Shown here: positions 26,638 through 30,796 of the stretch, one piece after another
How positions within the stretch are numbered: the stretch's first letter is position 1
Layout: each line of letters opens with the position of its first letter
Source: Chloroflexota bacterium
GTDB taxonomy: Bacteria; Chloroflexota; Anaerolineae; Anaerolineales; E44-bin32
Assembly (NCBI GenBank): GCA_022561215.1
Contig: JADFRQ010000012.1
Location: 1 to 64,000 of the forward strand
Length of the DNA stretch: 64,000 bases
Reading direction: 5' to 3'
The notes under the pieces: model-generated
What the model was told of the DNA's origin: nothing
Database searches by the model: none
What the model saw: the letters and a program-made list of their open reading frames with translations, nothing else
Position numbers and translations under genes: made by a program

Positions 26638-27809
26638 ACCTCCAGCACCCGAGGGCTTAATCTTTTTGCGATGCGGGGCAGTGCGAAGATGGCGATGATG
26701 ACCATCCCCACAATTGCGATTGGCAATGCGTTTTCTAGCAGCCGATAGGCCTGCGTAACAGAATCTTCCACTTTGGCGCCTTCAAGAATCGCAAGGCTGA
26801 TCGCAATCGCATTCCACAGTCCATGAAAAGCGACAGCAAGAAAATAACCTAATCCCAGACGACTCCAACGTTTGCGAACGATCCCCTCTGCCAACCCCCA
26901 AGTGGCTATACCTGTTGTAAAAGCATGCATTAAGGTTGCCCCTGCGCGGGCAACCATGACGGCAAGCCAGGCATCTGTCTGTTGGGAAAGCAGAATTCCC
27001 TCGATCAATCCGTAGGAAGCGCCGCCAATCACGCCACTTAAGAAGGCTTCTGCCGGGGACAATCCGCGTCGTAACAGTGGCCAAATTACCATTGTTTTAA
27101 GCGCTTCTTCCAGCAGTGGCACAAGCAGCGAAACAAAGCCGAAGATCAGCGCAAGCACCCAGGGCATTGCCATCAGCAGTTCGGTAACCTCTGTGATCTC
27201 TGAAGAGGATAGATTTGCGAGCAGATCCAAGAGCGCACGACCCTCAATCGAGCCCGATGCTCCCAACACGAAGAGCAGCAGCACGGGGATCAATAAAATA
27301 ATCTCACTGAAAAACGCAAAAAAGGGGACCGCCCACAGACCGACGGTAAATTGGCCCCACAACCTGCGTTTCGAAAGGGCAGGACTATGTTTTCGGACGA
27401 GCAATATTGCAAAGGTGCTCGATCCACAAGCGCCCAAAATTTGTGCTGCCGGTCCCAGGATATTGGGAAATAGGCCTGCATTGAAGCCGATAAAGCCCAA
27501 ACCAAGCGCAATGGGGAAAACCGTGACGGGAATTAGCGCTGCCGCTCTGGATATTGGCCGCCGCGCATCCCGCATGCCCCGCAGACTGCGAAATCCAAAT
27601 AGAACTGCCGGGACGCCGGCAAGTGACAGAAAGATAAAAATTACAAACCATGTTGCAGTTTGAGAGGTGAGCTCAGGATTTCCCATAAGCAACGAGATCA
27701 CTGAAAATGCCCCACTTAACATGGCGATTCCCAGGGTGATCATGCTCCCGGCTATGGCAAAGATGAAGAACCACAAATCGGAGGATCTGGCTTTTCGCGG
27801 AATAGTCAT
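26601..27809 (-). CDS. PrsW-family intramembrane metalloprotease
   Basis: A 402-residue multi-pass membrane protein of the PrsW/CAAX-protease-like group. The active-site motifs are EEALKTMVIWP near residue 235 (EExxK), HAFTTGI and AFHGLWN, in order and inside predicted helices. PrsW in Bacillus cuts an anti-sigma factor during envelope stress. Whether this copy does so is unknown. Its ATG overlaps the stop of the upstream selenoprotein candidate (ATGA), so the two are translationally coupled. It converges on and overlaps the DedA gene. Confidence 0.88.
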   Translation of the reverse strand: MTIPRKARSSDLWFFIFAIAGSMITLGIAMLSGAFSVISLLMGNPELTSQTATWFVIFIFLSLAGVPAVLFGFRSLRGMRDARRPISRAAALIPVTVFPIALGLGFIGFNAGLFPNILGPAAQILGACGSSTFAILLVRKHSPALSKRRLWGQFTVGLWAVPFFAFFSEIILLIPVLLLFVLGASGSIEGRALLDLLANLSSSEITEVTELLMAMPWVLALIFGFVSLLVPLLEEALKTMVIWPLLRRGLSPAEAFLSGVIGGASYGLIEGILLSQQTDAWLAVMVARAGATLMHAFTTGIATWGLAEGIVRKRWSRLGLGYFLAVAFHGLWNAIAISLAILEGAKVEDSVTQAYRLLENALPIAIVGMVIIAIFALPRIAKRLSPRVLEVQDRGVASSALD

Positions 27810-29077
27810 CGAGACTCGACGCTCACAGTTTTGATGAATGCCTGAGGAGGTTCGAGAATATCGTCAAGTGGATCACGTTTTTCCAGGGAGGAAAGCAGTT
27901 CAAGGCCATCAATCACTCGTCCAAAAATTGTGTGCTGGCCGTCAAGTTCCGGCAACGGACGGAGTGTGATAAAAAACTTGCTTCCATTTGAATCCGATCC
28001 GCTGTTGGTGATTGCCACCATGCCAACTTCGCCAAAATCTAATCGCGGGTCGATTTCCAACTGGTAATGATATCCGGGATCACCAAAGCCGGTTCCACTT
28101 GGATCTCCCGTTTCTGCCAATACATCTTCAATAACCCTTATGAATCCATTCCCGTCAAACCAACCCTCATTCTGCAGGAACAGAAAACTGTTTACTGCAA
28201 GAGGCGCAGAATCGGGGTAAAGTTGAATGACGATCTCTCCGATATTGAGGTGAAGTCTGACAATCAAATCACTTCCGGCGGAAAGCTTCATTGGAGGATA
28301 AGCAGCAAATTGACGATTTTCATGGATTTCGAGGCGCACAAATGCTTCGAGAACAGGCAATTCAGGAGCCAGCGGAAATAGCTCATCATTTAGGAAAATG
28401 GCCGGTGTTCCGGTGAGACCCGAACTCAATGCTGCGGTGAAGGCTTCTTCCATCAATGCTGAATAACGCCCAACCGCGAGATCATCATTAAATTTATCGA
28501 TGTCGAGATCAAGCTCAATAGCGGCGATGGATAACCACCCTCTAAACGCGTCCGGGGAAAGGTCTACCCACTCATCCCATCTTTCAAACAAGATATCGTA
28601 CATGGGCCAAAACTTGCCCTGCGCGCCGGCAGCTTCGGAGGCCTGCCCTGCCAACGAGGCTTTGTCGTGGATGGATAGAAGGGGAAAATGGCGGAAAATG
28701 ACACGCAGATCATCTGGATGAAGCGCTTCGAGCTGCGCCAGCACGGGCGCAAATTGAGCACAAAATGGTCATTGAAAATCCGAGTAAAACACGAGAGAAA
28801 CTTGGGCGCTTGAGGGACCCTTACTCCACTCATTGGCGCTGATGGCTGGTATGGGAGCAGCAGTGGGAAGAGAACTTGCGGGCGGTAGGGTCGCCGTTGG
28901 GGGAAGTTGGGTCGCGGTGGGCCCGAGAACTACCGGGCTTCTGGAAATCGTCGCTGTGGTAGCCGCAGGAGTTTGTGGACTCGGCGAACACCCATAGATG
29001 AAAATTGCGATGCCCAGTGCAATGCACGACCGGGGCAATTTTCTCAATTTTGACTTTGGATCAATCGTCATAGACAT
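27806..29077 (-). CDS. candidate selenoprotein: DsbA-like lipoprotein fused to cyclophilin (in-frame TGA = Sec103)
   Basis: One 423-residue protein if TGA 28771-28769 is read as selenocysteine. Residues 1-30: signal peptide with lipobox Cys30 (IAIFIYGC). About 31-85: Pro/Thr/Ala linker. About 86-265: DsbA/thioredoxin_4 domain, with VFYSDFQ, then Sec103-P-F-C106 in place of CPxC, and the cis-Pro loop LTGTPAIFLND (Pro225). About 270-423: cyclophilin-type prolyl isomerase (FIRVIEDV with the catalytic Arg, GSKFFITL, LDGQHTIFGRVIDG). Both halves are in the same frame, and the TGA falls exactly on the nucleophilic Cys position. A hairpin follows the TGA, and a tRNA-Sec gene lies nearby. It probably acts outside the membrane in thiol redox and protein folding. 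The alternative is a chance nonsense mutation. Confidence 0.85.
28734..28751 (-). promoter_or_regulatory. bSECIS-like hairpin downstream of TGA
   Basis: On the coding strand TGCGCC-CGTGCT-GGCGCA forms a perfect 6-bp stem, extendable by a T-G pair, with a 6-nt loop containing GU. The loop begins 24 nt after the TGA, and the loop G is at +25. Known bacterial SECIS elements have a small G/GU-containing apical loop at about this distance. SelB recognition is inferred. Confidence 0.6.
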
Positions 29078-29454: not shown

Positions 29455-29548
29455 GGGGGTGGTTGGGTCCCGGTGGGCTCCACGGTCTTCAAAATCGCTG
29501 GCGGGTCGCACAGCGGGCCGCGGTGGGTTCGACTCCCACCCACTCCCG
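29455..29548 (+). tRNA. selC: tRNA-Sec (anticodon TCA)
   Basis: A 94-nt selenocysteine tRNA that delivers Sec to UGA through SelB. The anticodon loop CTTCAAA gives TCA. The acceptor arm has eight pairs (GGGGGTGG with CCACTCCC), with a 5-bp T stem (GTGGGTTCGACTCCCAC), making the 13-bp acceptor/T stack typical of bacterial tRNA-Sec. The variable arm is very long, and the D arm carries the CGGTGGGCTCC-type sequence seen in these tRNAs. No encoded CCA. It lies 377 bp from the start of the divergent candidate selenoprotein and 21 bp before the M50 protease gene. Confidence 0.93.
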
Positions 29549-29569: not shown

Positions 29570-30796
29570 ATGCAACAAGATTCTCCACAATTGAATATTC
29601 AGCAATCCGAAGATCAACTCCTACGATCCGTGCGCGCGGTTATGCGGGTGGAGGAAGTGACCCACGGAAGTCCAGGCGATGACTTTGTTGTTCGCTTTCG
29701 AGGAAAAATATTGGGGGATTCGGAAGCTGCTTATGAGCGCTTGAACCCGGTTTTCTCTAAGCAGGGGATGACGCTGCTATTCCGTGAAGAGGATAGTGAG
29801 CATTTTGTGCAAGGAATTCCTGAGCTTGAGAAGCCCAAGCCTTCAAACCCATCGATAAACGTCCTTCTCTTTATCTTGACCTTATTTAGTGTCTTGACGG
29901 CAGGTGTCCTTTATTCACTCGAGGATATCGCCATAATCGAGGAAAGGGGCCTGATCCTGGGCATTCTTTCGCAGATCCCGATCGGCATTCCATTCGCTTT
30001 TAGCCTCTTGTCAATCCTTTTGGCGCATGAATTCGGCCATTACCTCGCCGCACGTTATCACAAGGTCCCGGTCTCGCTACCCTACTTTCTTCCTTTCCCG
30101 GTAAGTTTATTCGGAACCCTGGGTGCATTCATCAAGCTCAAGGCGCCGCCAAGAAATCGTAATGCAATTCTCGATATCGGCATTGCCGGTCCGCTGGCGG
30201 GAATGGCAGTCGCCATTCCAATTCTTTTCTTGGGGCTGGTACTTTCGGAGGTTAAGCCACTTCCGCCGACAGCCTTTGCAATGCAAGGTACCACCCTCGA
30301 GGGAAACTCGCTTCTTTACCTGGGAGCAAAATTCATCGTTACCGGGCAGTTGCTGCCGGCCCCCGCCGATTACGCCGGCCTGAACCCGGTGTTGTATTGG
30401 ATTCGTTACTTTTTTCTCGGGCTTCCCACACCAATCGGCGGCACCGACATTTTGCTGCACCCTATCGCCTGGGCGGGTTGGGCAGGATTGTTAGTGACGG
30501 CACTTAATCTTATTCCGGCCGGGCAGCTGGATGGGGGCCATGTGATGTATGTGCTTCTAGGGCAAAAAGTTCGCCGGACATGGCCGTTCATTGTGGTTTT
30601 GCTGATCGGGCTGGGGGTTGTCTGGTCTGGATGGTACCTCTGGGCGGCAATGATATTCTTTATGGGCCGAACCCATGTGCAGCCTCTTAACGAGATAACG
30701 CCGCTGGACAATCGAAGAAAATGGATTGCCATTTTTGGATTGTTGGTCTTTATCCTCGTCTTTACACCGGTCCCTTTGAGAAGTTTCCTTAATTAA
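29570..30796 (+). CDS. site-2 protease family (M50) membrane metalloprotease
   Basis: A 408-residue multi-pass intramembrane zinc protease. The zinc motif HEFGH is at residues 153-157. The third ligand lies in NLIPAGQLDGGH near residue 321. About 95 cytoplasmic residues precede the first helix, and no PDZ domain is seen, as in the EGY1/plant-like bacterial group. Such enzymes cut membrane-bound regulators or clear signal remnants. It starts 21 bp after tRNA-Sec and may be read through from the same promoter. No strong ribosome-binding site is present (GGGG at a distance of six). Confidence 0.9.
   Translation: MQQDSPQLNIQQSEDQLLRSVRAVMRVEEVTHGSPGDDFVVRFRGKILGDSEAAYERLNPVFSKQGMTLLFREEDSEHFVQGIPELEKPKPSNPSINVLLFILTLFSVLTAGVLYSLEDIAIIEERGLILGILSQIPIGIPFAFSLLSILLAHEFGHYLAARYHKVPVSLPYFLPFPVSLFGTLGAFIKLKAPPRNRNAILDIGIAGPLAGMAVAIPILFLGLVLSEVKPLPPTAFAMQGTTLEGNSLLYLGAKFIVTGQLLPAPADYAGLNPVLYWIRYFFLGLPTPIGGTDILLHPIAWAGWAGLLVTALNLIPAGQLDGGHVMYVLLGQKVRRTWPFIVVLLIGLGVVWSGWYLWAAMIFFMGRTHVQPLNEITPLDNRRKWIAIFGLLVFILVFTPVPLRSFLN

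Follow-up and report, generated by a model that had tools for sequence, protein, structure and literature searches.

A DsbA-cyclophilin fusion gene of an Anaerolineales bacterium as a probable selenoprotein gene with its own SECIS hairpin

The stretch of DNA analysed here, referred to as the window, comprises 64,000 nucleotides of contig JADFRQ010000012.1 (assembly GCA_022561215.1) of a Chloroflexota bacterium. On its minus strand lies a gene which, in all likelihood, codes for an exported and probably lipid-anchored selenoprotein: the in-frame UGA codon 103 would be decoded as selenocysteine (Sec), a DsbA-like domain would perform thiol-disulfide exchange through a UxxC site, and a cyclophilin-type domain would act on the same client proteins. 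The comparisons presented below support a real selenoprotein gene, in which the UGA would be recoded by means of a local SECIS hairpin and from which we infer the incorporation of selenium. The features of the locus are given in Table 1.

Table 1. Features of the fusion gene and its surroundings, in window positions
Feature	Position	Strand	Description and evidence
Coding sequence of the predicted Sec-containing DsbA-cyclophilin lipoprotein	27806..29077	-	423 aa + stop; translation, Pfam domains, homologues across residues 1-423
UGA codon, predicted selenocysteine 103	28769..28771	-	First position of CxxC (U-P-F-C); translation, same column in 34 genomes
Putative signal peptide, lipobox ending at Cys30 (IYGC)	28988..29077	-	Sequence and alignment
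Pro/Thr/Ser-rich linker, predicted disordered	28838..28987	-	Sequence; pLDDT < 50 for residues 1-72
DsbA-like thioredoxin-fold domain (Thioredoxin_4 / DSBA)	28349..28822	-	Residues 86-243; Pfam, model
Cyclophilin-type peptidyl-prolyl isomerase domain	27872..28261	-	Residues 273-402; Pfam, PDB profile, fold match
Predicted SECIS hairpin	28733..28752	-	7-bp stem (UUGCGCC / GGCGCAG), 6-nt loop CGUGCU at 28745-28740; folding, covariation, synonymous-codon test
tRNA-Sec gene (selC)	29455..29547	+	Rfam RF01852, 66.3 bits; ARAGORN tRNA-SeC(tca)

Gene structure and protein domains

The coding sequence starts with an ATG at 29077 and ends with a TGA at 27808-27806, and codon 103 (28771-28769) is the sole internal TGA of its 423-codon frame. 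Minus-strand translation gives exactly what the initial annotation had described, namely two same-frame segments split by a single TGA that stands for the first Cys of the DsbA-like CxxC motif, in the context VFYSDFQ-U-PFCAQF. The second Cys of the motif (Cys106) is present, and the cis-Pro loop, which had also been called intact, contains a candidate cis-Pro, Pro225 (GTP), which is invariant in the alignment. Without recoding, i.e. with standard table 11, the ORF list contains two pieces, 29077-28769 (102 aa) and 28744-27806 (312 aa), in line with the expectation that standard annotation would split the gene.

At the N-terminus, the IYGC of residues 27-30 departs from the lipobox pattern at position -2; at the same place, relatives carry IAAC, LSAC or IPAC, which are of the canonical type (alignment, without a predictor). 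Judging from this region, the protein is probably exported and lipid-anchored. The DsbA-like domain scored 66.8 bits with PF13462 and 53.4 bits with PF01323 (gathering cut-offs of 23.2 and 25.6, respectively), while the cyclophilin domain reached 112 bits with PF00160 vs. a cut-off of 21.7. In the structure model, pLDDT exceeds 90 over most of both domains and a helix (residues 104-119) begins right after Sec103, so that this residue would stand at the N-terminus of the active-site helix. The best 50 matches of the fold search were mainly cyclophilins, since these outscore the DsbA domain.

At the other end of the gene, the stop codon shares the sequence ATGA (27806-27809) with the start codon of the following gene on the same strand, which codes for a PrsW-like protease (27809-26601). 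This overlap suggests that the two genes may be translationally coupled.

Conservation of the UGA codon among homologues

The DsbA-cyclophilin fusion was found in 24 of the 27 genomes of the source genome's family and in 151 of the 201 genomes of the order (match E <= 1e-60), the named relatives that carry it being Chloroflexi and Anaerolineae. One TGA lies inside the match in 34 genomes of the order, including the source genome. All 34 TGA forms were aligned with 35 other homologues, and in each of the 34 the TGA lies in the residue-103 column. As for the 35 non-TGA homologues, this column is occupied by TGC or TGT in 26 and by a Ser codon in nine. The homologue comparison proposed in the initial annotation thus returned no random residues but Cys or Sec, with Ser in a single family. 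Three more fusion genes, from other families of the class (L187, L188 and L199), also show a TGA in place of the active-site Cys. On the basis of this alignment, the placement of the TGA on the catalytic Cys is estimated to be far beyond chance.

Between close relatives, the differences downstream of the UGA are biased to third codon positions, and the bias is found on both sides of the UGA. As this is the pattern of translated genes, selection at the protein level continues past the UGA. These observations bear on a rival reading, in which the UGA really terminates translation, results from a sequencing error or reflects decay, the locus being then a pseudogene or two separate genes. Even though table 11 does yield two ORFs, the same TGA column is present in 33 other genomes, which excludes the sequencing error envisaged at the outset; in addition, protein-level selection goes on downstream and the UGA is followed by a hairpin that exceeds coding need (see below). 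This reading was therefore rejected and its probability is considered minimal.

The SECIS hairpin

In all 34 Sec forms, a stem-loop begins 16 nt past the UGA. Counting the T of the UGA as position 1, positions 20-26 pair with positions 33-39 and enclose a six-base loop, which reads CGUGNU in 34/34 sequences, only the fifth base being variable. Two-sided changes were observed at pairs 24-35 (GC to AU or UA), 22-37 (GC to CG) and 21-38 (UA to CG). As a whole, 96.6% of the cells are paired vs. 92.5% in shuffles, with none of the 500 shuffles as good and no slid register close. One or two stem mismatches are present in a few members (L138, L141, L147, L148 and L154).

The hairpin is missing from 34 of the 35 Cys/Ser homologues, and its mean energy is -10.5 kcal/mol in the Sec forms vs. 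-3.3 in the Cys/Ser forms (Mann-Whitney P = 2e-11). Compared with synonymous recodings of the same protein, a better fold (P <= 0.05) was obtained for 30 of the 34 Sec genes vs. 4 of the 35 others. The hairpin thus exceeds the coding need and is kept for its own sake. Taken alone, the single-sequence 50-nt fold gives z = -1.16, and it is on the comparative tests that the SECIS assignment rests. The small, G-containing apical loop agrees with the way in which bacterial SECIS elements are described in PMC1088965. From its pattern of conservation, the hairpin is identified as a bacterial SECIS element.

Concerning the three fusion genes found elsewhere in the class, the TGA at the same motif is accompanied by hairpins of different sequence. 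When the SECIS model was run against the whole source genome, the present gene was the sole confident match (E 2e-16, the next one being at 0.06); the model is therefore specific to this gene and picks up no other selenoproteins, not even selD.

Selenocysteine machinery and genomic context

The source genome (3.39 Mb, 126 contigs, 91% complete) contains selA (one strong match, E 8e-135), selB (344 bits vs. a curated cut-off of 242) and selD (368 bits). The three genes for which the initial annotation had suggested looking were thus all found, together with tRNA-Sec. An in-frame TGA, at CAG-U-ASK, is also present within selD (C72:75817-76746, L185), with a strong hairpin after it, which makes selD a selenoprotein gene in its own right and gives the Sec machinery another client. 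Among the 34 Sec-form genomes, SelA was found in 31; the three in which it was not found (G005, G020 and G124) are all 80% complete or less.

These genes argue against a second reading, in which the UGA would be read through as Cys or another standard amino acid, either by general reassignment or by a tRNA-Sec that is otherwise charged. It is true that most homologues have Cys at this position, and that under selenium shortage Cys can take the place of Sec at UGA. Nevertheless, selA, selB, selD and tRNA-Sec are all present, and UGA is still a stop, as it ends this gene and many of its relatives at the same place; general reassignment, under which the SECIS hairpin would moreover be needless, was rejected for this reason. 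Read-through as a standard amino acid is thus held to be very unlikely, and decoding of the UGA as Sec is retained.

The tRNA-Sec gene is divergent from the fusion gene, on the opposite strand and 378 bp upstream of its start. The same arrangement was observed in 21 of the 24 fusion-bearing genomes of the source's family, Cys and Ser forms included (L012-L034), while outside this family tRNA-Sec adjoins the fusion gene only in L166. Directly downstream of tRNA-Sec, the window carries a gene for an M50 family membrane peptidase (29570-30796, plus strand).

A second DsbA-like hit with one TGA was obtained in the same genome (C20:665-2600, L184). It was rejected as a selenoprotein, as its TGA precedes the start codon and its motif reads CPYC. 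By eye, this DsbA-like domain is fused to an apparent NhaA-type Na+/H+ antiporter.

Distribution of the Sec, Cys and Ser forms

In a tree computed without the residue-103 column, the Sec, Cys and Ser forms are intermingled, and parsimony requires a minimum of 14 changes of the Sec label, six of which are forced by well-supported branches. Since the tree is unrooted and covers a sample of the Cys forms from outside the source's family, these counts do not separate gains from losses. Close relatives can differ at this residue, as illustrated by L139 (Sec) beside L158 (Cys). The homologue L128 has a TGC codon (Cys; codon at 2460) yet a perfect SECIS hairpin, and so looks like the relic of a Sec-to-Cys change that took place recently.

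In nine relatives, all in the source's family (L019-L023, L027, L029, L031 and L034), the Sec position is occupied by Ser, and tRNA-Sec is still adjacent to most of these nine genes. A Cys is present four residues upstream (YCDFQS) in L019-L023 and L031. Some Ser forms have lost both redox residues (SPAG in L029, SPAS in L034) and keep the two-domain protein. The maintenance of the protein where the residue is Ser, in some cases without either Cys, suggests that part of its function may be independent of the redox site.

Proposed mechanism

During translation, SelB with tRNA-Sec would decode UGA codon 103 as selenocysteine, under the direction of the SECIS hairpin with its 16 unpaired nt, 7-bp stem and G-containing 6-nt loop. 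From fold and motif, Sec103 would be the N-terminal nucleophile of the UxxC site and form a selenenylsulfide with Cys106, and the DsbA-like domain would conduct thiol-disulfide (selenenylsulfide) exchange on exported proteins. The cyclophilin domain, for its part, would act on the X-Pro bonds of the same clients, giving a folding factor with two activities outside the membrane.

As regards the redox partner, the genome encodes a VKOR family member as well as DsbD_TM (CcdA/DsbD-type) family members, so that the cycle may run in the oxidising or in the reducing direction, with membrane proteins of one or the other type as putative partners. Of the catalytic residues of CypA, R55, F113 and H126 have conserved equivalents in the cyclophilin domain, while the positions of F60, M61 and Q63 are occupied by V, L and E, respectively (by eye, against the PDB profile alignment). 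The isomerase may be weak, because the equivalent of Gln63 of CypA is Glu.

The same residues bear on a third reading, in which the protein is a selenoprotein whose DsbA-like domain is mainly peroxidase-like or serves reductive repair, the cyclophilin part being a binding module only. A lower redox potential and a preference for reductive or peroxide chemistry are properties conferred by Sec; the Glu at the Gln63 equivalent and the CcdA/DsbD-type proteins encoded in the genome also go in this direction. However, a VKOR-type oxidant is encoded too, and the fusion to a prolyl isomerase speaks for a role in protein folding. This reading is a real but rather unlikely alternative. Greater weight is given to a bifunctional extracytoplasmic folding factor, which would combine selenium chemistry and prolyl isomerisation in one lipid-anchored chain and belong to a family that has repeatedly exchanged Sec, Cys and Ser at a single position, with tRNA-Sec adjacent in one bacterial family; this full account is judged to have about an even chance of being correct.

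Comparison with known systems

UxxC DsbA and DsbG-like selenoproteins are already described and figure in published lists (PMC1088965, PMC2398784, PMC9312934 and PMC13188914). The best NCBIfam match of the present protein is NF041057 (Rcas_1661 family thioredoxin-like (seleno)lipoprotein, DsbG-like), over residues 33-234 with 60.3 bits, well below the curated cut-off of 190. This family, which appears as a UxxC selenoprotein family in PMC13188914, likewise consists of thioredoxin-like UxxC lipoproteins; unlike the fusion protein, its model of 247 positions leaves no room for a cyclophilin domain. The DsbA-like selenoproteins known from marine metagenomes (UxxC, PF01323) also have a DSBA-fold domain in which Sec takes the first CxxC position, together with a SECIS element (PMC1088965, PMC2398784). 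The fusions described for them, in the accessible text of these papers, concern Prx, Prx-like, UGSC-containing protein and SelD, and no cyclophilin fusion was found there.

The initial annotation knew of no described selenoprotein with the DsbA-cyclophilin order. This is in agreement with our literature searches, which reached only a minority of the subscription papers and found neither a cyclophilin-fused selenoprotein nor selenoproteins of Anaerolineae. The combination of DsbA and cyclophilin would thus add a selenoprotein architecture that was not found described in the lists and papers covered by these searches. The fusion is common in one order of apparently uncultured Chloroflexota, and plain ORF calling would split its Sec form. 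With close relatives that carry Sec, Cys or Ser at a single catalytic residue (L139/L158, L128), the family allows a direct test of what an exported enzyme gains from Sec and at what cost; should the reading as a bifunctional folding factor be true, these relatives would form a natural series for examining the benefit of Sec outside the cell and the reasons for its loss.

Among proteins with only one of the two domains, the cyclophilin-type isomerases (PF00160), such as PpiA of M. tuberculosis (1w74) and PPIL1 (2x7k), have the same fold as the C-terminal domain according to the sequence profile and the fold search (TM-score by target length of ~0.8). They differ from the fusion protein in having neither a DsbA-like domain nor Sec, and their Gln63 equivalent is replaced by Glu in the latter. 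The Cys-form DsbA-cyclophilin fusions of Chloroflexi and Anaerolineae (e.g. L041-L044) have the same domain order and 40-45% identity to the present protein, but carry TGC in place of the UGA and lack the SECIS hairpin.
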